From: an uncultured bacterium
Lineage (GTDB): Bacteria > Verrucomicrobiota > Kiritimatiellia > RFP12 > CAIWXQ01
Length of the DNA stretch: 64,000 nt
Assembly: GCA_903916675.1 (NCBI GenBank)
Contig: CAIWXQ010000006.1
Coordinates: 1-64,000, forward strand
Reading direction: 5' to 3'
Position numbers and translations under genes: made by a program. This document shows, in pieces, positions 2 through 51,403 of the stretch (its first letter is position 1; each line of letters starts with the position of its first letter). The notes beneath the pieces were generated by a model. The model did not search any database. It saw only the letters and a list, made by a program, of their open reading frames with translations, and had not been told where the DNA came from.

Positions 2-1072
2 CTGTTCAATCTAGGCGCTGCCCCCTACGTGTCGTTCCGCAACCTGACACTCCGCAACGGGTGTGATTATGCTACAGCAGGATCTCAAGCCGGCGGCGGC
101 GCCATATGTGCCAAAAACCAGTACACGCTGATCATCTCGAACTGCTACATCTACAACTGTATGTCGACCAACTTCGCCGCCGGGGTTTCTTTCTATCCCG
201 TTTCCAACTTGTCGGCCAAGAACGCCAATCTGTACATCTACGACTCCATCATCGCGAGCAACACGTGCGCGACTTATGCTGGCGGCCTCTATGTCAATGC
301 CGCCAATGGGCCCTCGCCAAGTGCGTATTTGTATAATTCGGCCATCATCGGGAATGTTGCCACCGGCTACGCACCAGGTGCCGCTTTGGGGGTCTCCACT
401 GCTCTGGTCCAGAACTGCACGTTCACAGGCAACAGCACGCCGGGCACAACCGCGGCTGGCGCGCTGTATCTTGTGAACATAGTGGGGCAGACCGCCGGCC
501 TCTTGGTGCAGACCAACTGGACCGTCCGCAATTGCACGATTGCCGGCAACTCCGCGCCTGCGGGGCCTTGCGGCGGCTTTGGCTATAGTCACGGCGTTCT
601 CTCGCAGGCGCTCTTCCTGGTGAGCACGATCATTGCGCAGAACACGGCGACCAGCATTGGCGGCGCTCCGGACATCAAGCAGCTGAACCCCAATTACACC
701 TACCCGCAGTGCGTGGAGAGCTACAACCTGATTGGCGACAGCACGAATTGTGCGCTGGTCATCGCGGGTTCTAACATCTTCAGCGTGGCGGGGCAGACCC
801 TCAATGCGAACAACAGTTACATTGGCAACAGCGGCGCCGCGGTCGGCACAGTCAACCCGCAGCTCTCAACGCTGGCCAACAACGGCGGCCCCACGCCGAC
901 CATGGCCCTGCAGGGTGGCAGCCTGGCCATCGACCACGGCGCCAATCCGGGCAACCTCCTCTCCGACCAGCGCGGATCCGGCTATAACCGGGTGGTGGGA
1001 AGCCAGGCTGATATCGGCGCCTTTGAGTTCGGCTCCGGCCCGCCCACGGGGCTGATCATCTACATCCAGTAG
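2..1072 (+). CDS. Choice-of-anchor-Q beta-helix protein, 5' truncated by window edge
   Basis: The reading frame is open from the first bases of the window, so the start lies outside; 356 residues are visible. The sequence is rich in Asn, Gly, Ser and Thr, with right-handed beta-helix rungs such as LYIYDSIIASNT, AYLYNSAIIGN and VQNCTFTGN. The C-terminus (NNGGPTPTMALQGGSLAIDHG, then GSQADIGAFEF) is the choice-of-anchor-Q signature, which implies a secreted surface protein. It ends in PPTGLIIYIQ, closely matching the tail of the related protein ending at 6561. A hairpin follows the stop. Ligand and role are unknown; such folds often bind or cleave polysaccharides, but no catalytic site is recognisable. 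Confidence 0.85.
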   Translation: MFNLGAAPYVSFRNLTLRNGCDYATAGSQAGGGAICAKNQYTLIISNCYIYNCMSTNFAAGVSFYPVSNLSAKNANLYIYDSIIASNTCATYAGGLYVNAANGPSPSAYLYNSAIIGNVATGYAPGAALGVSTALVQNCTFTGNSTPGTTAAGALYLVNIVGQTAGLLVQTNWTVRNCTIAGNSAPAGPCGGFGYSHGVLSQALFLVSTIIAQNTATSIGGAPDIKQLNPNYTYPQCVESYNLIGDSTNCALVIAGSNIFSVAGQTLNANNSYIGNSGAAVGTVNPQLSTLANNGGPTPTMALQGGSLAIDHGANPGNLLSDQRGSGYNRVVGSQADIGAFEFGSGPPTGLIIYIQ

Positions 1073-1138: not shown

Positions 1139-1265
1139 GGTAGGGCGGCCAGTCCCTTGGCCGCCGCACCCTTCTACTTCAACAATCGACACGCTGCGGT
1201 TCTGCGGTTCGTTTGTGAATCTTATTGTAGCGGCGGCTGTGTCAGCCGCCGACGGCGCGTCCTCG
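1139..1265. repeat. Dispersed repeat cluster (GTAGGG-type, TTCAACAATC-type, GTAGCGGC-type)
   Basis: Three intergenic repeat units lie in a row: GTAGGGCGGCCAGTCCCTTG (palindromic CGGCC core), then the unit starting TTCAACAATCGACACGCTGC at 1178-1211, then GTAGCGGCGGCTGTGTCAGC. Relatives recur throughout the window. No gene is seen here. Confidence 0.75.
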
Positions 1266-1353
1266 CGCCGAGCCCGGAGAATGTGACGCGCCCCGGGCAA
1301 TACCGAAGGGCTGCGGCAAGGATGCCGTGCCCTACTTGGCTGCCTGCTCCCAC

Positions 1354-1488
1354 TTCAACAATCAGCACTCTGCTGTTCTGCGGTTTTGCGGTTCGCTCAT
1401 GAATCTTGCGAATGTAAGTAACAGGATCCGATCGGCAGGGACGCCTCTCCGAGGCGTCCGCGGACGGTTCGGAGCGCCATCCCTACCT
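1354..1488. repeat. Dispersed repeats (TTCAACAATC-type 1354-1397; GCAGGGACGCCTC-type 1436-1488)
   Basis: The unit at 1354-1397 contains TTCAACAATCAGCACTCTGC and ends GCGGTTTTGCGGTTCGC. The second unit, beginning GCAGGGACGCCTCTCCGAGG and ending GCGCCATCCCTACC, is a loose inverted repeat related to 62654-62682. With the preceding cluster it fills the 417-base gap before the next gene. Confidence 0.7.
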
Positions 1489-1489
1489 T

Positions 1490-1831
1490 TTACTTCCGCG
1501 TGGCGCCGCTATTTTTGGCGGAAGAAGCAGCGTTGGTGCGCGCGCCGGCTGCGCTGCGCGCGGCCGCCAGCTCGGCCTTGAGCTTGTTGCACTCGACCTG
1601 CAGTGCCGCCACGTGGCTCTGCATCGTCGGAAGGTCATCAGCCTCGTCGTCGATGATTCGTGCCGTGGCAATGGCTGGCAGAGGCGTTATCGACGAGACC
1701 ATTGGCGGATTTCCGGAGAGGTCGGCCGACAGTGCCGCACGCTCCTCACGCAACTGCATCTGCGCGCGAACGGCAACCCCCATCGAAACTGCTGTGATAA
1801 CCACCAGTGCTGCGCCAAACCATTTGTTCAT
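1490..1831 (-). CDS. Small exported or membrane-anchored coiled-coil protein
   Basis: 113 residues. The start is supported by GGAGG seven bases upstream of the ATG. Residues 5-24 form a hydrophobic signal or anchor segment (FGAALVVITAVSMGVAVRAQ), and residues about 72-95 are a predicted coiled coil (ALQVECNKLKAELAAARSAA), followed by a basic Ala/Ser/Asn tail. The gene stands alone between repeat clusters. No family recognised; a role as a periplasmic scaffold or adaptor is only a guess from the coiled coil. Confidence 0.6.
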   Translation of the reverse strand: MNKWFGAALVVITAVSMGVAVRAQMQLREERAALSADLSGNPPMVSSITPLPAIATARIIDDEADDLPTMQSHVAALQVECNKLKAELAAARSAAGARTNAASSAKNSGATRK

Positions 1832-1879
1832 GACACGCCTCCGCGGACCTCTGTGGTCTGTGACACCTTCATCTTACAA

Positions 1880-2064
1880 GATCGGGGTCGGGGTCGGAAT
1901 CGGAATCGGTGTCGCAAAAGTAGCCCGCGTGGTTCCCGCGCGGGTAGATACGGACACGAAGAAGAGAAAGTCAGCCGAAGATCACAAAAGGGGTTGGATG
2001 GATGCCCCGGCCGCGCCCGCCTTCAACAATCGACACTCTGCTGTTCTGCGGGTTTGCGGTTCGC
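1880..2064. repeat. Repeat cluster: GGTCGG hexamer tract, GGACACGAAG unit, TTCAACAATC unit
   Basis: Positions 1880-1914 are a near-tandem hexamer tract (GGGGTCGGGGTCGGAATCGG). About 1954-1990 is the GGACACGAAGAAGAGAAAG unit that also occurs inverted near 4545-4588 and 6410-6450. 2022-2064 is the TTCAACAATCGACACTCTGC unit. No protein-coding signal is seen. Confidence 0.7.
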
Positions 2065-2139
2065 CTGGCGGCATCCATCTGTTCGTCTGTTGCGCAGGAT
2101 TCCCAGTTCACCCGAAGCGTGCGGCGTGTCCGCGAGCAG

Positions 2140-3129
2140 TCACTTCCAGACTCCTTGCACGATGCGGCCGCAGGCTGGGCAGTGGCCGTCCTTTACGCGA
2201 TTCTTGACGACGGTATGGCGCGCGCGTTCGATCAGCAGGCAATGGCAGCCGGCGCAGAAGGTGTTTTCGCCATCGGGCACGTCAAGGTTGCCGACGTAGA
2301 CATGCTTCAGCCCTTCGGCGCGGGCGATCTCCCGTGCGCGCAGAAGCGTTTCAACGGGCGTGGGTGGCAGGTGGGTCATGCGGTAGAGCGGGAAGAAGCG
2401 CAGGAAATGGAAGGGCGTCTCAGCCCCGGCGTGCGCCACGACCCAGCGGCAGAGGTCGCGGAACAGCGCGTCCGTGTCGTTGAGCGTCGGCACCACGAGG
2501 TTGCTCAGCTCGACATAGACGCCTTCCTCCTTCAGGATCTCGATCGTGCGCAGCACAGGCGCCAGCGTCGCGCCGCAGACCTCGCGGTAGAACACGTCGG
2601 ACATGGCCTTGATGTCGAGCGTGGCAGCGTCGAGCACGCGGCAAAGCTGGCGGAGCGGATCGGGGTTGATGTAGCCTGCGGTGACGATGGCATTGCGGAT
2701 GCCGGCCTGCCGGCAGGCCTGGGAGGAATCGCGGGTGTACTCGTAATAGACCAGCGGCTCGGTGTAGGTGTAAGCCACGGACGGACAGTTGTGCTTCCGT
2801 GCTTCAACCGGGACCTGCTCCGGCAACAGTTGATAGGCCGGGAGTTCCTCGGGGTTGCCCTGCGAGATCTCCCAGTTCTGGCAGTTCAGGCAGTGCAGGT
2901 TGCACCCTGCGGTGGCCAGCGAGAAGACAGGCGTGCCGGGAAGAAAGTGGAAGAATGGTTTCTTCTCGATGGGGTCCACCTGCACCGAGCAGGGTCGGCC
3001 GTAGGTGACGGCCTGCAGTTTGCCGGCCACGTTCACGCGGATGCGGCATTCGCCACGCTCACCCGGCGCGATCTGGCAGAAGCGGGGACAGATGCTGCAG
3101 GGGACGGCACGTGACGCTTGGTTCATCAT
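2140..3129 (-). CDS. amrS: AmmeMemoRadiSam-system radical SAM enzyme
   Basis: 329 residues. A radical SAM CxxxCxxC cluster motif is at C76-C80-C83 (CNLHCLNC). An N-terminal Cys-rich segment (C11, C14, C18, C28) and a C-terminal CxxC...CxxC pair (C292/C295, C317/C320) look like extra metal or Fe-S sites typical of this family, once annotated as pyruvate-formate-lyase activating enzymes. YTEPLVYYEYT and LDIKAMSD are family-like stretches. The physiological substrate of AmrS is not firmly known. The start overlaps the stop of the upstream FMN-binding gene by four bases, so the two are translationally coupled. No AmmeMemo (AMMECR1/Memo) partners are in the window. Confidence 0.88.
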   Translation of the reverse strand: MMNQASRAVPCSICPRFCQIAPGERGECRIRVNVAGKLQAVTYGRPCSVQVDPIEKKPFFHFLPGTPVFSLATAGCNLHCLNCQNWEISQGNPEELPAYQLLPEQVPVEARKHNCPSVAYTYTEPLVYYEYTRDSSQACRQAGIRNAIVTAGYINPDPLRQLCRVLDAATLDIKAMSDVFYREVCGATLAPVLRTIEILKEEGVYVELSNLVVPTLNDTDALFRDLCRWVVAHAGAETPFHFLRFFPLYRMTHLPPTPVETLLRAREIARAEGLKHVYVGNLDVPDGENTFCAGCHCLLIERARHTVVKNRVKDGHCPACGRIVQGVWK

Positions 3130-3731
3130 GGGGTGCCTGCCGGCGCCGCCAGGCCGGCTGGCTCGATCACGCGCCGGATGGCGTCGCGGTGCTTGTGGTA
3201 GACTTCGAGCCCCGCGCGGACAGCCGCGAGTACGGCGTCGGACGAGATGGTGGCGCCGGTGATCGCGTCAATCGCGCCGCCCCTGGTACGCGTGGCCCAC
3301 GGTGTCTTTGCGGCGTCTTTGCCCGCGAACTGGGCGCGGAAGGCATCGTCGGCCACGCGGGTGCCGAGTCCCCGGGTCTCCTGCTGCTCGAGGATTTCGA
3401 TCCCCTGCACGGCCTCGTTCGTGTTCACGCCCACCAGCACGCGGATGAAGCTGCTATATCCCCAGGCAGACGACGCAAACGCCACACCCGCGTAGCGACG
3501 GTTCTTGGCCGCAACGTAGAACGTCCAGGTCTTGCCGTCCTCCGTGAAGGTGACCGTGGCCTCAGCCGGGCGGTTGTCGCAGGCTGGCAGCACGCGCGCC
3601 AGCAGATTCGCCGGGACCGGGCCAACAGGAGGCGCGGTCTGGGGGCGCCCCTGCGGCGCGGCCACGACGATTGCCACGGTCGCCAGAATTCCGACGCTTG
3701 CCAGGCAGGAAACGAAACGCGTGCGTCGCAT
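3126..3731 (-). CDS. Exported FMN-binding domain protein (RnfG/NosR-like)
   Basis: 201 residues with a Sec signal (hydrophobic residues 10-25). The FMN-binding domain covers about 60-180, with ETRGLGT at 118-124 and ITGAT at 157-161, where T161 would be the covalent flavinylation site (S/T-G-A-T motif). Proteins of this type carry electrons on the periplasmic side. It is the first gene of a two-gene operon with amrS (ATGA overlap). FMN-binding and AmrS genes are often neighbours in anaerobes, which suggests a redox link, but none is proven here. Confidence 0.85.
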   Translation of the reverse strand: MRRTRFVSCLASVGILATVAIVVAAPQGRPQTAPPVGPVPANLLARVLPACDNRPAEATVTFTEDGKTWTFYVAAKNRRYAGVAFASSAWGYSSFIRVLVGVNTNEAVQGIEILEQQETRGLGTRVADDAFRAQFAGKDAAKTPWATRTRGGAIDAITGATISSDAVLAAVRAGLEVYHKHRDAIRRVIEPAGLAAPAGTP

Positions 3732-3814
3732 GGGGACTCCTTGGGCAGCAGGACGATTTCGCTACTCTCCTATTAGTCTATTCCGCGGCCGACCGGTTGA
3801 CCAGAGGCAAAAAA

Positions 3815-3843
3815 GGTAGGGCGCGCAGTCCCTTGCGCGCCGT
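3815..3843. repeat. Palindromic GTAGGG-type dispersed repeat
   Basis: GGTAGGGCGCGCAGTCCCTTG followed by GCGCGC: the same frame as 1139-1166 and 61282-61310, with the palindromic arm changed from CGGCC to GCGCG. The compensatory arm change preserves a hairpin. Confidence 0.6.
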
Positions 3844-3987
3844 CGCGCGGAAAGGCGTGCGCTCCGTTTTCTCTCCAGCCCCTCTGCACTTGCGACGCAA
3901 GGCCGCGGGGGTTGCCGCCTTCATGAATCCGGTTGCTTCCGGCTGCCGATGCGGTACGATTTTCCCAAGCGGAAAACGGAGGCTGGT

Positions 3988-4437
3988 ATGAAGGCATTGG
4001 TGCAGCGCGTGACAGAGGCGGCAGTGGAAGTGGACGGCCGCGAGGTGTCGCGGATCGGTCCGGGGCTGCTGGTGCTGCTCGGGGTGCGGCACGAGGATGG
4101 GCCGGAGGATGTGGCCTGGCTGGCGCGCAAGCTGCCGGCGCTGCGGATCTTCACGGATGAGGGCGGACAGATGAATCGGTCAATGATTGAGACCGGCGGC
4201 AGCCTCCTGGTGGTCTCGCAGTTCACGCTCTATGCCGACACGCGCAAGGGGAACCGCCCCAGCTTCATCGTGGCAGCGCGGCCGGAGACGGCCAGCCAGC
4301 TCTACGAGGAACTGGTGCGCCAGCTGCGCGCACAACTGGGCGAGGGGCGCGTGGCTACCGGGGTCTTCGGCGCGTCGATGAAGGTCCGGCTGGTCAACGA
4401 CGGACCAGTGACAATCGAGCTCTGCTCGGATCCGTGA
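3988..4437 (+). CDS. dtd: D-aminoacyl-tRNA deacylase
   Basis: 149 residues, the normal length. It hydrolyses D-aminoacyl (and glycyl) esters from mischarged tRNAs. The diagnostic motifs are present: SQFTL at 77-81 and NDGPVT at 137-142, the cross-subunit Gly-cis-Pro motif of the DTD dimer. The start at 3988 (MKALVQRV) is preferred over an in-frame ATG at 3949 because GGAGG sits five bases upstream and it matches the family N-terminus. Cytoplasmic housekeeping gene; monocistronic, followed by a hairpin. Confidence 0.95.
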
Positions 4438-4441
4438 ATAA

Positions 4442-4468
4442 CCGGGCGATCCGCCCGGGCTTCTCTTC
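4442..4468 (+). terminator. Possible terminator after dtd
   Basis: Perfect 7-bp stem CCGGGCG / CGCCCGG with loop ATC starting four bases after the stop, followed by GCTTCTCTTC. The pyrimidine tract is imperfect. Confidence 0.4.
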
Positions 4469-4474
4469 ACGGAC

Positions 4475-4628
4475 GAGCGAACCGCAAAACCGCAGAAGGT
4501 AGATTGTTGGAGTAGGGTGCGGCCGGGGTCGGCCGCCAACGATCCTTCGCTATCTTCGGCAGCCTTTCTCTCCTTCGTGTCCGCATTTCAACACTCTGCG
4601 GTTGGGCCTTCGTCACTTTGCGGTTCGC
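4475..4628. repeat. Repeat cluster between dtd and the propeller gene
   Basis: An inverted copy of the TTCAACAATC...GCGGTTCGC family (GAGCGAACCGCAAAACCGCA), then the CCTTCGTGTCCGCATTTCAA unit, then a direct partial copy ending TTTGCGGTTCGCC. Together they make an inverted arrangement across the gap. Confidence 0.7.
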
Positions 4629-4651
4629 CTGGCGAGATCCAGCGTATCGAT

Positions 4652-5989
4652 TTACTTCTGCTCACGCAGATCGAGGCATTTCAGGATCGTGTCGTCGCGC
4701 ACGAGCAGCCGCCCATCGACGCACACCAGCGGACACCAGACCTGCTTCTTCTGCTCCAGGACACGCGCCTGGGCCAGTTGTTTGTACGCCGCGGGAGAAG
4801 CCTCAGCGAGGCGCAGCACGCCATCGCCGGAGAGCGAAACCAGCAGGTCGTCCGCCACGATCAGGTCGCCGATTTCGACCGCGACGCTCTTTCCGGTCTT
4901 CCACTTTGGCAGGCCGTCCAGTCCCAGGCAGACCAGGCCGTTGGCAGCGTTCTGGAGGGAGTTGCCGTTGGCGTAGATGCAGCCGCGGAAGAAGACAGGC
5001 ATGTGCAGATGGCTGCTGCAGGCTTCGCCCGGCTTGGGCGGCGCGTCCGATGCCAGGGCCTTTTTGGGCGCGGTGTAGCCGAGTTCGCCGATGCCGTTGA
5101 AGATCAGCTTGACCGCATAGGCGCCGTCCTGCTTCGACACCTGGACCAGCGCGCTGTTGGCGTTGTAGCCGCCGGTGAGGAAGAAGAGGCCGTCGCCGCA
5201 GTAGAGCGGCTGCGTGATTCCGATGCAGCACCCCCAGTCGGAGAAGGTCCAGAGGATCGTGCCGTCAGCCGGGTTGACGCCGAACAGGTTGGCGCGGTCA
5301 TTCTTGTCCTCCACCTGTCCGAGCATCACGATCTGGTCGACGCCCTGCACGTTGACCAGCAGGGGCGAGGTGTAGGAGGAGTTGATCGAGCTGTCCAGCG
5401 GCTTGGCCTTCCAGACGGGCTTGCCGGTGAGCTTGTCGAACGCCGCGAGGCTGGCCTCGCTGTTCAGCGGCGCCACGATCACCAGATCCTTATAGAGCAG
5501 CGGCGACTGCGCCACGCCCCATCTGGGCGGCTTGACCTTCGAGCCGCTGGCGAGCACGCTGCGCATCCAGAGGCGCTGGTGCGTGGCCTTGTCCACGCAC
5601 TGGACCTGCCCGAAGCTGCCGATCGTGGCCACGACCTGGTCATCCACGGCCGGCGTGGAGCGCGAGCCGGGATAGGAGAATTCCCCCGGCGCGTCGTAGG
5701 AGAGGCTCCACTCCTCTTGGCCGGTGGCGAAGTCGAGGCAGCGCAGCGCGTCGCTGTTGGTGGCGACGCGATCGAGAAGGTAGACCTTGCCGTCGCGGAC
5801 CGCGGGCGCGGCGAATCCAAGGCCGACGGGCATCTGCCAGAGCTTCTTCGGGCCGGCTTCCGGCCAGCTGCGGGCCAGGTGGCCATCCATTGCGACCTTG
5901 GCCCCATTGGGGCCGCCGAACTGCGGCCAGTCGGCCGCGCTCAGCGCGGTGACGCAGAAAAGAGCGAGCGAGGCGAAGCGGATGATCAT
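4652..5989 (-). CDS. Exported PQQ-like beta-propeller protein
   Basis: 445 residues with a Sec signal (residues 1-19, ending TALSAA), then ADWPQFGGPNG, the usual start of these propellers in PVC bacteria. Repeated blades carry the W-x-type PQQ-like pattern: LRCLDFATGQEEWSL, VQCVDKATHQRLWMR, LAAFDKLTGKPVWKA, LFGVNPADGTILWTF, LVCLGLDGLPKWKTG. No dehydrogenase catalytic residues or heme site are evident, so it is more likely a BamB-like or structural propeller than a quinoprotein enzyme. It stands alone, with repeat clusters on both sides. Confidence 0.82.
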   Translation of the reverse strand: MIIRFASLALFCVTALSAADWPQFGGPNGAKVAMDGHLARSWPEAGPKKLWQMPVGLGFAAPAVRDGKVYLLDRVATNSDALRCLDFATGQEEWSLSYDAPGEFSYPGSRSTPAVDDQVVATIGSFGQVQCVDKATHQRLWMRSVLASGSKVKPPRWGVAQSPLLYKDLVIVAPLNSEASLAAFDKLTGKPVWKAKPLDSSINSSYTSPLLVNVQGVDQIVMLGQVEDKNDRANLFGVNPADGTILWTFSDWGCCIGITQPLYCGDGLFFLTGGYNANSALVQVSKQDGAYAVKLIFNGIGELGYTAPKKALASDAPPKPGEACSSHLHMPVFFRGCIYANGNSLQNAANGLVCLGLDGLPKWKTGKSVAVEIGDLIVADDLLVSLSGDGVLRLAEASPAAYKQLAQARVLEQKKQVWCPLVCVDGRLLVRDDTILKCLDLREQK

Positions 5990-6110
5990 GTAGTGCTCCA
6001 GTTGGGTTGCGGGAAAACGTATCGGATCGATTTGGATGCGTCAAGCAGGCAAGTTCACCGGCCAGCCGGGCGTGCTCACTTGAATAAACCAGGCCTTCGG
6101 TTACACGCCA

Positions 6111-6500
6111 TGGAGGGCGAGCGTCCTCGCGAGCCGGGTTTTCGGTTGTTGGATAGGGACGGCTCTGCTCACGTTCGCCAGAATCACGAAGCGAACCGCA
6201 AAGCCGCAGAACAGAAGAGTGTTGATTGTTGAAGTAAAACTTCAACACGCTGCGGTTGGGCGTTCGTCACTTTGCGGTTCGCGTGTAGAAACCCTTGTGC
6301 CGGTACAATTTTCCGGGGTCTGATTTTGACGAGCGAACTGCGAAACCGCAGAACAGAAGAGTGTCGATTTTTGAAGTAGAGCGCGGTCGGGGCCGCCCTT
6401 CACCGATCCTTCGCGATCTTCGGCTGACTTTCTTTTCTTCGTGTCCGCATTTCAAAACGGCGTCCCTCGTTTCCGAACTGGAGAGTGCTGATTGTTGAAA
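6111..6500. repeat. Large dispersed-repeat cluster
   Basis: Contains, in order: GGAGGGCGAGCGTCCTCGCG at 6115-6134; a back-to-back inverted pair of the GCGAACCGCA...TTCAAC family at 6189-6284; another inverted copy at 6330-6377; and the CGAAGATCGCGAAGGATC / CTTCGTGTCCGCATTT unit at about 6405-6453. A fragment GAGTGCTGATTGTTGAA ends it. With 5990-6110 this is a 570-base gap with no coding evidence. Confidence 0.7.
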
Positions 6501-6540
6501 GGAAACAGGCGGTCGCGAAAGGATCTTCGCGGCCGCCCGC
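6496..6540 (-). terminator. Hairpin terminator of the second beta-helix gene
   Basis: On the minus strand, arms GCGGCCGCGAA and TTCGCGACCGC (one mismatch) are followed by TGTTTCCTTTC, close to the tail after the first beta-helix gene (GGTTGCTTTC). Confidence 0.5.
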
Positions 6541-6560
6541 CCGGGTTCCGGAAACCGTCC

Positions 6561-7247
6561 CTAGTAGAGGTAGATGATCAGGCCCGTGGGCGGGCCGGCG
6601 CCGAATTCGAACGCACCGATGTCCGCCTGGCTGCCCACCACGCGGTTGTAGCTGGAGCCGCGCTGGTCGTACGGAATGTTGCCCGGATTGCTGCCGGCGT
6701 TGATCGCCAGGCTGCCAGCCTGCAGGGCCATGGTCGGCGTGGAGCCGCCGTTGTAGGCCAGCGGCAAGAGCCGCGGGTTGACGACCCCTTGCGCGGTGCC
6801 GCTGTTGCCCACGTAGCTGCCGTTCGCATTGGGCAGGCCGTTCGTGATGACAGTGGTGCCGGACTGCATCGAGTTCGTGGTGTCGCCGATCAGGTTGTAG
6901 CTCTCCAACGCGGGACCACTGCCGCCGGAGGTGTTCCGGATATCCGGCGCGGCGTTGTTGCTGGCGGTGTTCATCGCAATGATCGTGCTGTACAGATAGA
7001 GGCTGCTGGCGGTGTTATAGCCCAGGCCGCCGACCAGCCCGTTCGGCGCGGCATTGCTGGCGATCGTGCAGTTGCGAATCGTCAGGCCCAGGGCGTTGTT
7101 GTACAGGCCGTTATAGTAAACCGCGCCGCCACCACTCCCGAAGATTACGGAGACACCCATTCCCGTGTTGCAGCAGATCGTGCAGTTCTGCACCAAGGCG
7201 GTGTAGCATGACGTGAGGAAAAGCCCCGGTATGGTTCCCCAGCCGGA
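6561..7247 (-). CDS. C-terminal part of frameshifted choice-of-anchor-Q beta-helix protein
   Basis: 228 codons that continue the gene starting at 8059 after a frame change in a run of eight C (coding strand, 7248-7255). Beta-helix rungs (ALVQNCTICCNTGMG, LTIRNCTIASNAAPNG, LYLYSTIIAMNTAS) lead to NGGSTPTMALQAGSLAINAG and GSQADIGAFEFGAG, then the tail PPTGLIIYLY. It is about collinear with the first gene of the window. One more C in the run (nine) would join it in frame to the upstream half. There is no plausible start of its own; upstream residues in this frame are out-of-frame noise. Confidence 0.75.
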   Translation of the reverse strand, partial: SGWGTIPGLFLTSCYTALVQNCTICCNTGMGVSVIFGSGGGAVYYNGLYNNALGLTIRNCTIASNAAPNGLVGGLGYNTASSLYLYSTIIAMNTASNNAAPDIRNTSGGSGPALESYNLIGDTTNSMQSGTTVITNGLPNANGSYVGNSGTAQGVVNPRLLPLAYNGGSTPTMALQAGSLAINAGSNPGNIPYDQRGSSYNRVVGSQADIGAFEFGAGPPTGLIIYLY

Positions 7248-8059
7248 GGGGGGGGAGAACCCCACAGATTGGTGGGCGTCTGATTGCCGAAGATGGCCGT
7301 GTCGTACAGCCAAACCGACTGCGGTGCTGGTAGTGCCGCCCCGTTCAGCCCCACGCCGCCACCCTGCCGCCCGCTGGTGTTGCTGCAGATGATGGAGTTG
7401 TAGATGTACACCTTCTGCCCCCCCGTGCTTGCGCCCGCATACTCGTCCTGATAACGAGGCCACACGTAGAACGGCAATCTCATCAGGAACTTGCCGGGTG
7501 GTATCAGAATGCATTTCAGAGACAGCTTGTCATTTACCTTGAGTAGCAACGGATCTTTGCCTGGCACCAGGAAAGGTTTGTCCGGCATCAGCATTCGGTC
7601 CGGATATTTCAACTTGAACTCCGGCACGATCTTGCTCGGGGTGATCCATTTTTTGCCATCTTTCTCCGAAAGAACCCCGGTCACGGCCACGGCAGGGTTG
7701 GCATACTGACACCCCTTCTTGTCAATGATGCTGGATGGAACAAGGTAATACTTCAGCCGCTCGTTAAACCTTTCCAGAACCTTGACTGCCTGCTCTGCAT
7801 TCAGGGTATCACTGGTGTAACACTCCTTCATCAGGCGGTCCATTTCAGCCTTCACCTCGGGAGTTCCGTCCACGGCATAAAGCACCTGGCCGTCCCCCAC
7901 GGCGCTCTCGTCGGGAGCGCACGCCTTTTCCCACAACAGGATGCCTTTGATGGTTACCTCCGCACCCGGAGCTGGTTTGACCGCACCACCCTGTCCGGAT
8001 GCGTATCCGGTGAACAGCATTAGCCCGGCAACCAAAATTACAAAGCGTATGGTTGTCAT
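7145..8059 (-). CDS. N-terminal part of a chimeric SUMF1-like / beta-helix gene, frameshifted
   Basis: Start at 8059 (MTTIRFVILV) is chosen over 8098 because AGGAGG precedes it and a signal peptide follows directly. Residues 1-22 are a signal; residues about 30-215 match the N-terminal module and the beginning of the SUMF1-like module of three other proteins in the window (VNDKLSLKCILIPPGKFLM). Around coding position 7437 (RYQDEY then AGASTGG) the homology switches in frame to beta-helix sequence (VYIYNSIICSNTSGRQGGG). After the C8 run at 7248-7255 this frame gives junk and stops at 7145, while true coding continues in the frame ending at 6561. It lies 35 bases downstream of another SUMF1-like gene, so probably in its operon. 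Could be a real gene fusion, a pseudogene or an assembly artefact. Confidence 0.65.
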   Translation of the reverse strand: MTTIRFVILVAGLMLFTGYASGQGGAVKPAPGAEVTIKGILLWEKACAPDESAVGDGQVLYAVDGTPEVKAEMDRLMKECYTSDTLNAEQAVKVLERFNERLKYYLVPSSIIDKKGCQYANPAVAVTGVLSEKDGKKWITPSKIVPEFKLKYPDRMLMPDKPFLVPGKDPLLLKVNDKLSLKCILIPPGKFLMRLPFYVWPRYQDEYAGASTGGQKVYIYNSIICSNTSGRQGGGVGLNGAALPAPQSVWLYDTAIFGNQTPTNLWGSPPPPAGEPYRGFSSRHATPPWCRTARSAATREWVSP

Positions 8060-8094
8060 GTTTCTCTTCCTCCTGCTTCGATGATGCTCATTTG

Positions 8095-9360
8095 TCACTT
8101 CTTCGCCGCTTGCGCTATTTCCGCGGTCTCTTCCGGCGTGGCATCCACCGCCACACGTATTTTTGTGAGGAAATAGCCCTTCCCGGTTCCGTCCTTGATG
8201 AATTCGCTGCCGCCATTCCCCCAGGTTCCCGTTCCGGCACGATTTTTGCCGCTGCGATCCGGGTAACTCCGGTCTACCTCGTCTTTGCGGGGATACGTGG
8301 GCCTGTCGCTCGTCATTTCATACGCACCGGCTCCCACCGGCTTGATCAGATCGTAAAACCCCCAGGCATTGGGCGCCGTGGTTTTCACCGGCAAGAGTGA
8401 ACTGCCGTCCGCCGCCACACTGAACAGGCCCGTCAGTTTCCGGAGGAAGGACGGATCGGAGGTGCCCACCACACCCGCATTCCCCATTTCGGCGGTTGTT
8501 GGCAGGCGGACCGTCCGCTGGTTCTTCTCCGACAGGATCTGGCAGAATCTGTCAACATTGGTCGCCGCCACACGCGTGACTGGCAGTTGCGGGTTCTTCT
8601 GATCGCTGGGGTTTTCTCCCATGACTGACTCATACATCTCCTGGGTTACCGGAATCTCAGCCAGATAATACGGCTTGGTCAGCGTCCACATGTATGGATA
8701 GTCATCATCGTACCGGCAGTACGAGTCGTTCCGTACGTACGTGTGGTAGAACGAGCCCTTAAAGATCTTCCCGGGTGGCACCAGGATGCACGTGAGCGAC
8801 AACGTGTCGGTGACTTTCAAAATCAGCGGTGTCTTGCCGGGCATGACAAACGGCTTGCGTGGCTGATACATCTTCTCCGGATAGGCCAGCGGCCCCGCGG
8901 GAACGATCTTGCTCGGCGTGATCCATTTCTGACCGTCCTTCTCGGAAACCACACCTGTCACAGCCTTCACCGGATTGCGCCAACGGTAGTCCTTTTCCTT
9001 TCCCGTAGTAAGCTCCGTGGGAGTGATGTAGTACTTCAGCCGTTTGATCCACTCGTTGTTCAGCTTTCGGGCATGCTCCGCGTCCATGCTGCCCTCGCCC
9101 GGCCAGTTCTCTTTCATAATGGCATCAACCGTGGCGGTCACCTCCGGTGTCCCTTCCACAGCAACCAGCAGCAGGATCTTTTCTGCGCTATCAGGCGGAT
9201 TTAAGAGCGCGGACGCTTCCGACATCACCGGCCCCTTCAGCGTGATTTCCTGACTTGTTGCGGCGGCCTGTTTCTCCTGCGCGAGCAGGATCTTTCCAGA
9301 CAAAATCGCTGTCATTGCCACGGCAAGCAGCACGCCGGATGACCTGAATGTTCGTTTCAT
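8095..9360 (-). CDS. Secreted SUMF1/FGE-like domain protein, catalytically doubtful
   Basis: 421 residues; start at 9360 (MKRTFRSSGV) is supported by AAGGAAGG upstream and a signal peptide (residues 1-28). Residues about 35-155 form an N-terminal module shared with the paralogs at 8059, 40819 and 48447 (EITLKGPVM, AVEGTPEVTATVDAIMKENW, KDGQKWITPSKIV). The C-terminal half is SUMF1-like (LTKPYYLAEIPVTQEMYES, RVAVDATPEE). The usual AEWEYA motif has become AEMGNAG, and the GGSW and catalytic Cys region of true formylglycine-generating enzymes is absent, so sulfatase activation is unlikely. First gene of an apparent two-gene operon. Confidence 0.8.
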   Translation of the reverse strand: MKRTFRSSGVLLAVAMTAILSGKILLAQEKQAAATSQEITLKGPVMSEASALLNPPDSAEKILLLVAVEGTPEVTATVDAIMKENWPGEGSMDAEHARKLNNEWIKRLKYYITPTELTTGKEKDYRWRNPVKAVTGVVSEKDGQKWITPSKIVPAGPLAYPEKMYQPRKPFVMPGKTPLILKVTDTLSLTCILVPPGKIFKGSFYHTYVRNDSYCRYDDDYPYMWTLTKPYYLAEIPVTQEMYESVMGENPSDQKNPQLPVTRVAATNVDRFCQILSEKNQRTVRLPTTAEMGNAGVVGTSDPSFLRKLTGLFSVAADGSSLLPVKTTAPNAWGFYDLIKPVGAGAYEMTSDRPTYPRKDEVDRSYPDRSGKNRAGTGTWGNGGSEFIKDGTGKGYFLTKIRVAVDATPEETAEIAQAAKK

Positions 9361-9531
9361 TTCTTGCCTTCCTTTTGTTATGCAACCCGGCTGCACAATT
9401 GTTCGAAAGAAAGCTGCCAATAATTTACTCGCATGGAGGCTGGATGGCTATGTGTTCTGTTATTGTTTATTTGTCTTTTTTCGTTGAGCCCGGCATGGGC
9501 TGGGGGCACAATGCCCGGGTTATGAAGAATG

Positions 9532-9624
9532 GGCTTGCTTGGTGTCAGGTTTGCCACCAGTCGCGTCAACCGCTGGTTTTCATCCCGCAATTGCCTCAAC
9601 TCCCGCAACCCACTGACGCCCCTC
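9532..9624 (-). pseudogene. Remnant of an IS3-family OrfA
   Basis: The minus strand reads GLRELRQLRDENQRLTRLVA then NLTPSKPIL, which resembles the C-terminal leucine-zipper region of IS3-family OrfA (LEEENxRLKKLVADLxLDK). Only about 30 codons remain and the sequence then leaves the family; no OrfB or terminal repeats are present. Similarity is from memory of the family, not from a search. Confidence 0.4.
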
Positions 9625-9629
9625 CTGCA

Positions 9630-9680
9630 GAGTGTTGAAGTTTCCCTTCAAAAATCAGCACGCTGCGGTTTTGCGGTTGG
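9630..9680. repeat. TTCAACAATC/GCGGTT dispersed repeat
   Basis: GAGTGTTGAAG then TTCAAAAATCAGCACGCTGC and GGTTTTGCGGTTGG: a short inverted pair of the family seen at 6189-6284. Together with the IS3 remnant it is all that is recognisable in 9361-9834. Confidence 0.6.
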
Positions 9681-9834
9681 TCATTCCGCAGTGGCGTTTC
9701 CGCCCGGTTTCTGCGAACATAAACCGGCACGAAGAGCGCTGCTGTTGACCCGGCTGTGTTCTTCCTGCCAATGGCACAATAACGCCCCCGGCTGGCACGT
9801 TTGTACAGTAACAACCCCGCGGGAGCGGACCCGA

Positions 9835-34778: not shown

Positions 34779-34923
34779 TTCCCAAAATTGTTCCACTGCC
34801 GGCGGGAGAGAGGGGAATCGCACCAGCAAAGGCCGAAAATGGTTGAAAGCCGGCAGGCGAAAAGTATACGGTTAGCGCTCGGTTAGATGTCTTGGGCGGT
34901 GCCGGGTAGCGGAGGAAGCGAAG

Positions 34924-37856
34924 ATGGTGATCTCGCAGATCAGGATGAAGATGGCCGCTGTCGCGGGCTGACAATCGGGGCGTTCCTGGGCGCGGCAAAG
35001 GCCGCGGCTCCGGGCACGAAGCCGGCGGACACGGCCGGGGGCGAACTTACACTGTTGGAAATCATTGGCAGAGTCCAGCCATGCGGTGCCGCCCAGGGGA
35101 ATTTGGGCGTCGTACGCGAAGAGGGACGTGGGACGTTCTGGCGTTACTTCGAGACATGGCAGACGGAAGTTGTCCGCAAAGACGACGGCAAACTTGTACG
35201 CGTGGATCCTCTCAACCCGCGCGCGGATGTTGATTTCGATAAGCTCTGGAAGGCGGATCGTTCCGGAGACGCCAAAACAACCGGGATTCCGCTCCGCGAG
35301 ACGGACAAGATCATGGGTTCGGCATTCCCTCCGGCTGACTGGATCCAGCCCGATTTTGACGACAGCGCGTGGATACGAACCGCCACCCCTATTCAGATGG
35401 GCTATCGCAGTCTATGCCTGCTGTGCGTGAGGGGCAAGTTCACCGTGAACGACCCAGCTCGCGTGACGGAACTCACCCTGGCGGCATCCATTCAGGGCGG
35501 TGCCGTGGTTTATATCAACGGAAAGGAAGCGGGACGCTTCTCTCTTCCTGAAGGCAAGATTGCCAATGACACCCCGGCCGAGAATTATCCGCCGGAAGCC
35601 TTCTTCACGTCGTCCGGTGATCTGCTCGCGTTGACCCCGCCATATGGGACCGGAGGGTGCAGTTCCACGCCGGTGAAAGAAGAGGAGATTGATGCCCTCG
35701 CAACACGCCGGAAGGACGCTGAGTTGCCGGAAAGGTACAAAAAGAGGTTTCGCCACATCAGCCTGAAAATACCCGCGAACCTGCTGCGCAAGGGCGTCAA
35801 CGTCCTGGCGCTGGAGGTTCATCGGGCGCCGGCCCTGGAAGGGATGTTTGCAAAGGTCAAAACAAAATTGATGGGCTACAACCTGACGGAACACTACGAC
35901 TGGTTCTGGAATCGGGCAGACATTGATGGTGTGAAGTTGACCGCCAAGGCTTCGCCTGAATCGGTTGTTGCGAACGTCACGCGTCCCGCCGGCGTGCAGC
36001 TCTGGAACTGGCCAACCGCCAAGCATGTGGGGCTCAATACATACGGCGACCCGAACGAGCCGGTTTTCCCAATCCGGCTGGTCGGTGCGAAAAACGGCGC
36101 GTTTGCCGGCCAGGTGGTGGTGAGTTCGCGCAGCCCGATCAAGGCATTGAAGGCGGAAGTGACCGATCTGAAAAGCGCCACTGGCCAGATCATCCCGAAG
36201 ACGTCTGTGCGCATTCGTTATCCGCGGTACTACCTGCGGGATACCCGAATCGGCTTTGATGCCCTGGAGAATTCTGTCCCCGCCGAGATTCCCGTTCTGC
36301 AGATGCGGGATGCGCCGGACAAAGTCTGCGTTCAGCCGGTGTGGTTGACAATCGAGGTGCCCAAAGAGACAACGGCTGGCGATTATGCCGGGACCGTCAG
36401 CGTCAGCGCAGATGGCCTCAAGCTAACGGCCGTCCCGGTGCAACTGCATGTCAGCGACTGGAGCATTCCGGATCCCAGGGATTTCAACGTGTACATGGCG
36501 TTCATCCAGTCACCGGAGTCTCTGTCAATCCGGTATGGCGTGCCGATGTGGTCGGAGCAGCACTTCAAATTGATCGACCAGTGCTACCAGGTCCTGGGAC
36601 TGATCGGCACAAAAGATACCAACATCACGCTCGTACGCAAAACGCACTTTGGAAACGAGCACGGCATGGTGTGGTTTGTGAAGAAACCGGACGGAACTTA
36701 TGAGCCGTACCTGGACAACGTGGAGAAGTACATCGACATCGTGGCCAAGCGCCTCGGCAAGATTCCGACGATCAGTTTTTACGTCATTGAGCAGGATAAG
36801 GAGCGGCGGCCATGGATCACGGAATACAATCCGTCGACGAAGGAACTCAAGGATGGAACGGCGCCGGCGTGGGGAACGCCCGCGGCCGTGGCATTCTGGA
36901 AGCCGGCGTTTGACGGGATCTACAAGATCCTGGCGAAGTACGGCATGGAGAAATCCCTGGCGATCGCCACGCATGCCGTCAGCGGCGGCGGACCCGAGCC
37001 GTCGAAAGAGTGTGTCGCGGACATGAAAATTGTGGCGCCAAAGGCTGGCTGGGTTAAGTTGGCGCACATGTGGGGTTCTCACGGCGTGGAGAAAATGGAA
37101 AGTGGCCCGGGCGGAAACCCGTATCACCGGGTATCGCTGGTGGCAGGCAACTACGGCGTATTGTGGAATCCGGATGCGGACAAGCCGTTCTTCGGCTGGC
37201 GCAATCCGAATCCCGTGATTATGTACACGCGCGATGTGTTTGTGCAGGGTTCCCCCTTGCGCATGCCGCGCATGGCTGCGGAAATGATTCTATTTGCGGG
37301 ACTTCGGAAGGGGCCTGCCGCCTCATTCGGATTGGCTGACATCGCGGGCCAGTTTGGCCGTGACAGCTTCCAAGGCTCAAAGGGGTTCGGGCCGTGGGGA
37401 GCGGATTTCTGGCCGGTCCTGGGCGCAAATGGCAAATGGAACGACATTATCGCTCGTTTCGGCGACAATGCCGGCGCCGGATCGCGCTCCTATTGGTACA
37501 CGGTGGGACTGAACGCGGACCAGACGCCGTACCTCGTGGGCGATGGCGAAACAGGGCCGGTTTCCAGCATCCGGATCGAGTTGTTGCGGGAAAGCGATCA
37601 GGAAGCCGAAGCGCACATCCTCTGCGAGAACGCGCTGATGGAAGGGAAGCTTCCGGCTGACCTGGCGAAGCGCTGCAAGGAGATGTGCAACCGGCGGTTG
37701 TGGGCCATGCGTTATGATTCAGAGTTTACGTTGTTTGGCAGCAGCAAAGTGCCGAAAGAATCTCATTTCATGTTTGATCAGGGCAAATGGCAGAAACTCT
37801 CGCAGGAATTGTACGAGATGGCGGCTGAGGTCGGCAAGGCGTTGGGCAGAAAGTAG
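34924..37856 (+). CDS. Large secreted glycoside-hydrolase-like protein, 5' frameshift
   Basis: About 977 residues. The open frame runs from 34887, but that N-terminus has no signal. A better start is ATG 34924: GGAGG is nine bases upstream and it reads MVISQIRMKMAAVAG, which would continue into LTIGAFLGAAKAAAPG, a good signal peptide, if the GGG at 34965-34967 had one more G. Likely a one-base deletion, real or from sequencing. The mature protein has beta-sandwich regions (DWIQPDFDDSAWIRTATP, GGAVVYINGKEAGRF, GVNVLALEVHRAPA) and a TIM-barrel-like C-terminal half (DPRDFNVYMAFIQSPESLSI, HGVEKMESGP). About collinear with the protein at 48486-51353. DUF4091/DUF6067-type hydrolase is tentative; substrate unknown. 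Confidence 0.72.
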
Positions 37857-37887
37857 CCCGGTTGATGGCCACGAAAGGGATGTGAAT

Positions 37888-39735
37888 ATGATGCGATCCG
37901 TGATGCCTCTGGCGTTTCGAATACTGGCGATGTCGGCGCTCGGGCTGGCAACAAACGCCTTCGCGCTGATAAATCCCCAATTTACGCCGGCGCATTTGGT
38001 CGGCGGCTCGGCCGTTGTCTTGCAGTTGAAGATTTTGCCCGAACCGGGAGATGCGAAGCTGGCGTTTGCCGTCGAAAGCGTGCTGAAAGGCAAATTCGAC
38101 AGCAAAAAGGTGGAAGTGGACCTCACGTCAACATCCTATCCGGACCAGGCAAAATTTGCCGCCGCCATGGCCAGGGGCTCCGGGGCCAGGCTGGCCCTCA
38201 TGTTCATCGGGGAAGGTTCTGCCGAAGAACAGAAAATATACATACAGATCGAGGGCTCATGGATTGCGCTGTCGGGAGAAAATCCGGCGTGGAAATTCGA
38301 CCAGATGAGCACGGCGATGCTGACCACGTGGAATGGCGGCACGGACATGCTGTTGAAATGGGTCAAGTGCATCCTCGAGGATCCGACCGTGGAGGTTCCG
38401 GTGAGGACCGGCGTCAACTGGGGGCACGCCATTTCTGCCGGCAAGATTGCCGGAAAAGTGGCAGGTGCGGTTCCGGTCGATCTCCTGGGTACTGGCGTGC
38501 CACTGTTGTTTGTGGCTTCGGACACAGGGGACCGGCTGTTCTCCTTTGTTGATGGAAAGGCCGAGGACCTGACCGCCAAGTGCAAGTTGCAGTCCAAATC
38601 AATCGTCTTCGCCTGGGGCGATTTCAACGGTGACGGGCGGTTGGATCTGGCCAGCTGGGATGGCAAGGCGCTGACGATTTACACCCAGGGGGCTGACGGG
38701 ACATTCACAGGTGCGGCCGGTGCCAGGGGACTTGCCGAATGCCTGGGTCTGGTGGCGCTGGACGTCGGCACTATGGGCAAGCCTGGGCTGCTGGTGAGCA
38801 CCTCGGGCGCTCCGTTGTTGCTCATTCCTGGCGCGGAAGCGACGCCACGCAGCGTGTTCGAGGGCGAATGGCTGGGGAAAAACCTGGGGAAGGCTATGGC
38901 GTGCCTTCTGGCGGACTTTGATAACGATGGGGTGCCAGATATCATCCAGCCCCTGGCACGCGGCGGCTTGTTCTACAAGGGGACTGGCTTGGGCGTTTTC
39001 GCTGCGCCGGTTGCCTGTCAGGTCGCGGCGGGTGAAGCGCCGGGAAATGCGTGTCTGGGCGATTGGAATCAGGACGGCCTGCTGGACATCATCATCTCGG
39101 GCAATGACAAGTGTACGTTGTGGGAGAATCGCGGCAAGGGCAATTTCTCCGATGAAAACAAGCTGACGGGGGAAATGAGTTATCAGGCCAGGGACGCGTC
39201 GATCATTGCCAGCGCGTGTGACCTGAACAACGACGGTCGCCAGGATGTGCTGCTGCTGTATTCCACTGCGGCGCCGCAGATATTCTTCAGCCGCGGATAT
39301 CGCTGCTTCGGTTTTTCCATTTCCATGGACTTGAGCCGAACACCTGTGTTGCCGGCCGCTTCAGACGGGCAGATCGCCGGTTGCGTGGCGGATTTCAATG
39401 GCGATGGCGCGCAGGATCTGGCCGTGGTTCTGGGCGATGGGGAGTGCGTGCTGGTGACGCGCGCAAGCACCGGCGAAGACCTGTGCGCGAGAGCCGTGGT
39501 GTCGCCCAAGTCCGGCTGCGTGGGCCCGGTGCGGGTGTGGTCGCTGCTGAACAACCGGATACTGGGAGCGTGGAACCTGTCCAGGGGCGCGGCTCCGGCC
39601 TTCCTCTGCCGGTCGGACGCGGGCCCGTTGAAGATCAAGTGGCAGTTTCCCGGACAGGCGGAACAGACAAAAGACATCGTGCTCGAGAACAAGCCGGTAA
39701 CAGTCCTGCTCGAGCCGCTTGGCGCCGGGAAATAG
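37888..39735 (+). CDS. Secreted FG-GAP/VCBS-type repeat protein
   Basis: 615 residues from 37888; the signal runs to about residue 27 (LATNAFA). The mature start ALINPQFTPAHLVGGS closely matches the paralog ending at 45139. Repeats with the calcium-binding D-x-N/D-x-D-G pattern are spaced through it: GDFNGDGRLDLAS, ADFDNDGVPDIIQ, GDWNQDGLLDIII, CDLNNDGRQDVLL, ADFNGDGAQDLAV, an integrin-alpha-like propeller for surface binding. It follows the hydrolase-like gene by 31 bases, so they form an operon. Probably a carbohydrate- or surface-binding partner of that protein; inferred. Confidence 0.82.
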   Translation: MMRSVMPLAFRILAMSALGLATNAFALINPQFTPAHLVGGSAVVLQLKILPEPGDAKLAFAVESVLKGKFDSKKVEVDLTSTSYPDQAKFAAAMARGSGARLALMFIGEGSAEEQKIYIQIEGSWIALSGENPAWKFDQMSTAMLTTWNGGTDMLLKWVKCILEDPTVEVPVRTGVNWGHAISAGKIAGKVAGAVPVDLLGTGVPLLFVASDTGDRLFSFVDGKAEDLTAKCKLQSKSIVFAWGDFNGDGRLDLASWDGKALTIYTQGADGTFTGAAGARGLAECLGLVALDVGTMGKPGLLVSTSGAPLLLIPGAEATPRSVFEGEWLGKNLGKAMACLLADFDNDGVPDIIQPLARGGLFYKGTGLGVFAAPVACQVAAGEAPGNACLGDWNQDGLLDIIISGNDKCTLWENRGKGNFSDENKLTGEMSYQARDASIIASACDLNNDGRQDVLLLYSTAAPQIFFSRGYRCFGFSISMDLSRTPVLPAASDGQIAGCVADFNGDGAQDLAVVLGDGECVLVTRASTGEDLCARAVVSPKSGCVGPVRVWSLLNNRILGAWNLSRGAAPAFLCRSDAGPLKIKWQFPGQAEQTKDIVLENKPVTVLLEPLGAGK

Positions 39736-39831
39736 CGCGATCACGCTTCCAGATGCCGTGACAGGCCGGGGCGATCTCAATCCATGGCTAGCGTCGACCG
39801 GTTGCCGGCGAGAGCGTTCTGCGCCGCATTG

Positions 39832-40554
39832 CTATTTTTGGCTGCCAGTGCCCAACAGGCCCAGCACCAGGGGCTTGACGGCTTCCGCCCAGATCGCATA
39901 TCCGGGGCTCTTCAGGTGAATGGGGCCGTTATAGACCGTCTGGGAGATGACGCCCCCGGGCGCCAGCTTTTCGCCGATATCCAGGAAGCGGATATTCTTG
40001 CCGTCGTCGAACTTGGCAATGAGCTGGTTGGTCTTTTTGATTTTCTCTTTTATTTCCGCGATATCCGAGGGAAAGATTCCCATCAGAAGAACTTTTGCCT
40101 GAGGCTGCTTTTGCTTGAGCAATTGGAGGATTGCCTGGATGCCAGTGGCGATTTCCTCCGGCTGATCCTTTCCGGAATTATTGATGCCAACCAGAAGCAT
40201 GATCGCCTTGGGTTGAATGTGCTCCAGTTCGCCGTTGGCCAGCCGCCACAGAACATGTTGCACCATGTCTCCGCCGACGCCCAAGTTCATAATCCGTGCG
40301 CTGCCGCAATATGCCTGTAAGTAGGTCAATCTCTTGTCTTCATTCCACCCGCCGGTGACGGAATCGCCGATCAACAGGAAGTCGCATTCCCCTTTCTGGA
40401 CCTTCTCCAAATAGCGCGTATGGGCAGCCACTCCGTTGGCGTCGTCTTTGCAAACCGGAATGGTGCAATCCTTTGCCAGGGACGCCGTCGGCATGGCGGC
40501 TGCCAGAATGAACAGGCCCATGAGGAGCCCTTGTGAGTCCAGACAATGTTTCAT
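39832..40554 (-). CDS. Secreted GDSL/SGNH esterase
   Basis: 240 residues from 40554 (an ATG at 40566 is possible), signal peptide ending near SLAKDC. SGNH blocks: I, FLLIGDSVTGGW (nucleophile Ser); II, MNLGVGGDMVQHVLWRL (oxyanion Gly); III, IMLLVGINNSG (Asn); V, NGPIHLKSPGYAIWA (catalytic His; the usual D-x-x-H is G-P-I-H, and DIGEKL precedes it). Similar to PAF-acetylhydrolase-like carbohydrate deacetylases of polysaccharide loci. It may remove acetyl groups from glycans. Convergent with the FG-GAP gene and divergent from the SUMF1-like gene. Confidence 0.83.
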   Translation of the reverse strand: MKHCLDSQGLLMGLFILAAAMPTASLAKDCTIPVCKDDANGVAAHTRYLEKVQKGECDFLLIGDSVTGGWNEDKRLTYLQAYCGSARIMNLGVGGDMVQHVLWRLANGELEHIQPKAIMLLVGINNSGKDQPEEIATGIQAILQLLKQKQPQAKVLLMGIFPSDIAEIKEKIKKTNQLIAKFDDGKNIRFLDIGEKLAPGGVISQTVYNGPIHLKSPGYAIWAEAVKPLVLGLLGTGSQK

Positions 40555-40818
40555 ACGTGAACGCATCCTTTTCTTTCCACGACATGCTGCGACCGTATCT
40601 CGCATAACGTCCGGTCAGCACGCGCTCATCCATGCGGATGATCTTTCCGATCGTGGCCAACAAGGCAAGCATACTTCTGCTCATTGTCCGGCGTCAATCA
40701 TCTGCGCCGGGTTTTGCGGGCTGGGCTAGCTGGCCCGGCAGCACTGGCTTCCAATAGAATAGTATTCAGCGTAATATATTGACGAATCGATGGTGGCAAC
40801 GACAGGAAACAACAACGC

Positions 40819-47013: not shown

Positions 47014-47100
47014 GACGAGAAATCTCCCTTGTGCCTGCGCGCGCTGTCCGCGTGGCCGCTGTTGGTCAACGGAGCCGGCGTGATCTTGGCTGGCGGCCCG

Positions 47101-48447: not shown

Positions 48448-48485
48448 GATTTTTTCCTGTTTCCGTCCGGCAAGCGGCGGATTCC

Positions 48486-51353: not shown

Positions 51354-51403
51354 GTTGCAGCCCTCCCCCATGGCCAATCGTGCGTGGATGGTCTCTTAAT
51401 GGT

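Follow-up and report, generated by a model that had tools for sequence, protein, structure and literature searches.

Organization of the fused locus

The window, that is, the whole 64,000-nt stretch of DNA analysed here, corresponds to bases 1-64000 of contig C6 in a draft assembly of 2,477,839 bases in 48 contigs (87.2% complete, 0.13% contamination). On its minus strand lies an ORF that begins as a SUMF1-like gene and continues into a beta-helix (Table 1). Its start was picked by eye, from an AGGAGG box upstream and a signal-peptide-like beginning. Directly upstream, with a gap of 35 nt, is an intact SUMF1-like paralog (P0003), matched by the Pfam FGE-sulfatase family at E 1e-11. The contig itself begins inside another beta-helix gene, the first gene of the window.

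Table 1. Features of the fused locus and its relatives in the window
Feature	Position	Strand	Description
Fused ORF	7145..8059	-	ATG at 8059, stop at 7147-7145, 304 aa; beta-helix, then out-of-frame tail to 7145
SUMF1-like part	7439..8059	-	Signal-peptide-like start (by eye), N-domain, FGE-fold stub ending RYQDEY
DUF6370-related OB-like N-domain within the fused ORF	7445-7981	-	HMM match
Junction of the two homologies	7438..7439	-	Paralog and beta-helix comparison
Beta-helix segment read in the fused frame	7257..7438	-	~60 codons
G8 tract (C8 on the coding strand), reading frame changes	7248..7255	-
Remaining beta-helix, different frame	6561..7253	-	No internal stops; ends GPPTGLIIYLY
Choice-of-anchor Q domain (NF041518)	6603..6779	-	P0002 residues 246-304
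Intact SUMF1-like paralog, P0003	8095..9360	-	N-domain and FGE-sulfatase domain
First gene of the window, beta-helix paralog with choice-of-anchor Q	2..1072	+	5' end cut by contig start

Two homologies meet at the junction

An earlier note on this DNA had placed a switch of homology at RYQDEY near 7437, and both the position and the residues proved right: the 5' codons, reading ...FYVWPRYQDEY, end at 7439, and from 7438 onward the beta-helix follows as AGASTGGQKVYIYNSIICSN... On the 5' side, the fusion matches 15 further SUMF1-like copies in its own genome, with E values from 1.5e-57 to 8.3e-8. The closest paralogs are about 50% identical. All 14 copies that keep the FGE part carry, by eye, a TLTKP-like motif just past the junction point (LTK in 12, LTR in one and FAK in one, also by eye), which the fusion never reaches. 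In support of the note's view that the SUMF1-like fold is mostly removed, no trace of the FGE half was detected in the fusion: a Pfam scan of the fused product (P0001) returned 0 families at E <= 0.1, and an HMM of the FGE half left it unmatched.

On the 3' side, the proposed match to the beta-helix of the first gene was recovered with the fused frame (E 9.5e-7, in a search of the reading frames examined only). At the DNA level it spans 33-34 nt with 88% identity to both other beta-helix loci. The whole beta-helix, joined by hand across the frameshift described below to serve as the query, is 56% identical to its paralogs (E 1.7e-64 for C1 and 9.3e-62 for the first gene). By sequence comparison, this 3'-side homology is far above chance. 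Note that the beta-helix is entered mid-helix, without the N-terminal cap seen on the second C1 helix.

A join mediated by repeats was considered and rejected, since the direct and inverted repeats in 6500-8200 are all <=22 nt and the nearby palindromic intergenic repeat lies more than 900 nt from the junction. This repeat is about 95 nt long, with ends GCGAACCGCAAAG and CTTTGCGGTTCGC, and is found in the window at 1145-9681 and at L025:2494-2590 and 4896-5009, L032:1596-1813 and L023:10296-10382. Its core, searched with up to four mismatches, gave seven hits in the window, all within 1192-9661, and the remaining 54 kb is free of it; one copy folded as single-stranded DNA has a strong hairpin potential (z -5.67). 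Each of the three beta-helix loci has a match to it no more than about 110 nt away on the 3' side, and matches in opposite orientation at 6204-6260 and 9620-9676 (57 nt, 79% complementary) bracket the SUMF1-like gene and the fusion. The GC content of the SUMF1-like part (~7250-9750) is 53-58%, below that of most of the window's first 20 kb.

The N-domain is normally followed by an FGE fold

The N-domain, of about 150 residues, is present in 16 copies in its own genome. An FGE fold follows it in 14 of these by Pfam, with the N-domain-plus-FGE frame unbroken in every one of the 14, and in 20 of 20 full-length copies from three other genomes by the FGE-half HMM (16 in a MAG recorded as Phycisphaerales fen_1344, and 2 + 2 in the other two). 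These genomes were reached via a GTDB genome-contig scan, from which records of the own genome, or of genomes very close to it, may be missing. Seven of the 20 genes were rows of the FGE-half HMM, six of those seven also matching Pfam FGE; partial second views of tandem copies in L091 and L092 were excluded from the count, as was a 21st match, a 104-aa frame without FGE. Both own-genome exceptions, the window fusion and a frame on contig C1, run into a beta-helix with choice-of-anchor Q.

The structural model of an intact paralog (window 40816-42162) matched TvpA (2y3c) in Foldseek at E 7.2e-12, together with PvdO (5hha), human FGE (1y1h) and others. Formylglycine-generating enzyme has a conserved catalytic cysteine pair near its C-terminus. 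Among 17 aligned intact relatives no invariant or near-invariant cysteine was found near the C-terminus, the cysteines listed being C213 and C289 of the 449-residue reference. The FGE fold is predicted for the intact SUMF1-like paralogs, but with no conserved cysteine near the C-terminus they are probably not formylglycine-generating enzymes. In the fusion, the region of the catalytic cysteines is absent.

The FGE fold is also a known target of diversity-generating retroelements, and such an element was considered since a variable protein heads the structural matches of the intact paralog. It was rejected, as a search of the own genome (assembly 87% complete) found no RVT_1 at E <= 0.001. Elsewhere in the window, two gene sets in opposite orientation (34887-42165 and 45139-51377) each comprise a GH123-type glycoside hydrolase, an FG-GAP repeat protein and a SUMF1-like gene.

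The N-domain is a remote relative of DUF6370

No Pfam family scored over its cut-off across the N-domain in any protein scanned, and PF19897 (DUF6370) left the fusion and the 15 other own-genome copies unmatched. An N-domain profile, run on a small set of frames, found small secreted proteins at E 3e-12 to 6e-8, and four of four of those scanned carry DUF6370. Because only a search that started from the N-domain profile showed the homology, we class the N-domain as a remote relative of DUF6370 and not as a member. The literature search under the name DUF6370 returned nothing.

The AlphaFold2 model of the N-domain has a mean pLDDT of 80 and a pTM of 0.71. Its likeness to the five-stranded barrel of OB-folds is weak: the top VIA match has a Z of 5.9 with 4.1 A across 85 residues, many VIA rows are OB-fold proteins, and Foldseek gave no match at E <= 0.001. 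The window copy has the best of the 16 HMM scores, a ranking in which the copy is itself among the model rows, and no decay was seen in it.

The domain is present in one of 161 genomes of the order, the own genome, and in at least five of 387 genomes of the phylum sample, namely the own genome and four weak partial matches, among the matches listed. The Phycisphaerales fen_1344 MAG also holds 16 copies of the N-domain/FGE family, whose subfamilies interleave on the tree with those of the own genome (loci L058-L064 in the own genome; G505 L079-L099). A family common to these two genomes points either to transfer or to labels that hide a closer kinship.

A second join of the same families on contig C1

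The frame on C1 (C1:171-176 kb, L023:5212-10233) is unbroken over 1674 aa and runs from N-domain to beta-helix to choice-of-anchor Q. In a tree of 27 N-domain rows, its N-domain falls in a clade (99/97) that does not hold the window copy, and thus belongs to a different subfamily. The same tree has two changes, a single change being found in 0% of bootstrap trees. The breakpoints differ as well, at N-domain model position 185 of 185 in the window and earlier, at position 120, on C1. From the different clades and the different breakpoints, we infer that the two joins are separate, independent events.

The beta-helix family has three loci, and in the own-genome DNA examined its frames lie only on C1 and C6. 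In the window, choice-of-anchor Q (NF041518) was detected in the other frame, P0002, at 71.8 bits against a cut-off of 25 (E 4e-20). Our literature search found nothing that joined at least three of the four subjects choice-of-anchor, beta-helix, fusion and Verrucomicrobi.

A homopolymer frameshift interrupts the fused frame

The G8/C8 tract, which the earlier note had passed over, shifts the frame, and the beta-helix and its anchor domain resume in another frame. Past it, about 230 codons are open with no stop, while wrong same-strand frames stay open for at most 191 codons in four sequences (the C1 fusion, P0003, the first beta-helix and the SUMF gene at 40948).

Third-position GC is 66% upstream of the junction and, within the beta-helix, 83% before and 88% after the frameshift. 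Elsewhere it is 66-72% in intact SUMF1-like genes, 76% in the front part of the C1 frame, 78% in the beta-helix of the first gene, and 68% and 79% in the two C1 helices. The step at the junction has the same direction as the family difference elsewhere but is larger, which counts slightly against a long-standing join. Given the high third-position GC on both sides and the run of stop-free codons, the loss of frame looks recent.

Runs of at least seven G or C are not enriched (11 seen against about 41 expected under a first-order Markov model, in 186 kb), and these statistics lend no support to a switchable tract. A second long run, C7 at 7418-7424, is about 14 nt away from the junction; a pair of runs of at least seven inside 180 nt looks unusual, given that the 186 kb examined has only 11 of them.

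Searches for the lost halves and for the junction

The FGE-end half lost by the fusion was not found elsewhere in the 87%-complete assembly, whose 16 FGE matches comprise 14 with the N-domain and two of other types (C12 and C30). The start of the beta-helix, sought with the C1 paralog sequence, a query that a much diverged start could escape, was found only on C1, with part also at the start of contig C6. The reciprocal product (beta-helix start plus FGE end) was likewise searched for and not found, the FGE genes on C12 and C30 being those other types. No unfused ancestral arrangement was found: no beta-helix frame on C1 or C6 stands intact beside a SUMF1-like gene.

Of the junction region, two 13-mers but not a single 15-mer are found again in 186 kb of own-genome DNA, and a 361-nt query run against the entire own genome gave short paralog matches only (72-88%). 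It had been proposed that the same junction be sought in other strains; it was absent from one genus-mate in a DNA search that covered two genomes including the own one, and from the N-domain genes of three other genomes. The exact junction was not found in viral contigs either.

A recent, decaying chimera is the favoured reading

Taken together, we think it somewhat probable that the locus is a chimera produced by intragenomic deletion or recombination, now frame-broken and most likely a recent, decaying relic. On this view, two genes on one strand were brought together by a deletion or an illegitimate recombination: a SUMF1-like gene, standing second in a tandem pair, would have supplied the 5' portion and a beta-helix gene the 3' portion. 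Counting against this, no beta-helix frame was found intact beside a SUMF1-like gene, which leaves the deletion itself as an inference, and the N-domain shows no decay. Judging by what is absent, almost the entire FGE fold would have gone in the join, as would the cap at the N-terminus of the beta-helix. Being in frame, it may for a time have given a secreted protein with an OB-like domain, a beta-helix and an anchor domain. The later frameshift in the C8 tract would truncate the product after two or three rungs, without the anchor. With the FGE fold lost, the beta-helix uncapped and the frame shifted, a working product is unlikely, and the absence of stops suggests that the damage is recent. 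Note that a frameshift within a homopolymer could be a sequencing error instead.

The earlier note had left the choice between a recombination product of two repeated gene families and a contig mis-join. The former gained ground, as both families are multi-copy and a second join exists on C1; the latter came out less supported. We regard as unlikely, though worth weighing, that the assembly joined two unrelated loci by mistake. The genome is a 48-contig draft, contig C6 begins inside a beta-helix gene, so that this family may break the assembly, the junction was seen neither in the genus-mate nor in the N-domain genes of the three other genomes, and the step in third-position GC from 66% to 83% exceeds most gaps between SUMF1-like genes (66-72%) and beta-helices (68-79%). 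Against an error of this kind, the junction 15-mers did not recur and the 361-nt search returned nothing beyond short paralog matches; neither orphan half turned up in an assembly that may lack 13% of the genome; the two parts are on the same strand and in frame, for which we estimate a chance of about 1 in 6; and the same families are joined a second time within the long unbroken C1 frame.

Rather doubtful, too, is a working fused gene, in which a secreted OB-like domain would carry a beta-helix and the C8 tract would be a sequencing error or phase-variable. The C1 frame has the same domain order without a break, the OB-like core is kept whole in the window and nearly so on C1 (to model position 120 of 185), the window fusion is stop-free in both parts, and the 14 intact paralogs are unbroken, so the assembly is not generally indel-ridden. 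As assembled, however, the frame is broken, the beta-helix is uncapped and entered mid-helix, and a stub of the FGE fold is left behind; moreover, long G/C runs are fewer than expected and length variation is not seen in the single known sequence. A bolder version, which we consider improbable, would make the OB-like domain an exchangeable N-terminal module, refitted at least twice from the FGE fold to beta-helix anchor proteins, with a length-switchable C8 in the window copy. Finally, an old pseudogene, functionless since the join, would explain the broken frame and is nonetheless very improbable, with about 230 codons stop-free after the frameshift against at most 191 in the wrong frames of four sequences.

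If the locus is indeed a recent relic of recombination, it belongs with the chimeras of two repeated families, from which both new domain orders and relics are known to arise, and its only unusual feature is that these two families have been paired more than once. The same two families, joined twice at different points in one 2.5-Mb draft, offer a small natural case in which to ask whether a secreted N-terminal module is re-used. In practice, 7145-8098 should be annotated neither as a SUMF1 protein nor as an intact fusion protein.

Comparison with known systems

As regards the FGE-sulfatase/SUMF1-like family (PF03781), the 5' part of the fusion is a paralog of 14 own-genome genes that carry this domain, but of the fold it retains no more than a short stub, and Pfam gives it no match. 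With DUF6370 (PF19897), the N-domain has in common a G-x-V-S-E-K-D-G-K-K-(W/M) block that is also present in the small proteins; by eye, it differs from them in an insert of roughly 35-40 residues and in the absence of their CxxC. Like the choice-of-anchor Q beta-helix proteins (NF041518), the 3' part of the fusion has the anchor domain, which here lies in a different frame from the fused start, and hence is absent from P0001, and the N-terminal cap is missing. The closest likeness within the genome is the C1 frame, in which an N-domain is also joined to a beta-helix with choice-of-anchor Q and without the FGE half. Unlike the window fusion, the C1 frame has two choice-of-anchor-Q stretches in an unbroken frame and, in front, a carboxypeptidase-regulatory-like stretch (29.3 bits, Pfam cut-off 32.3).
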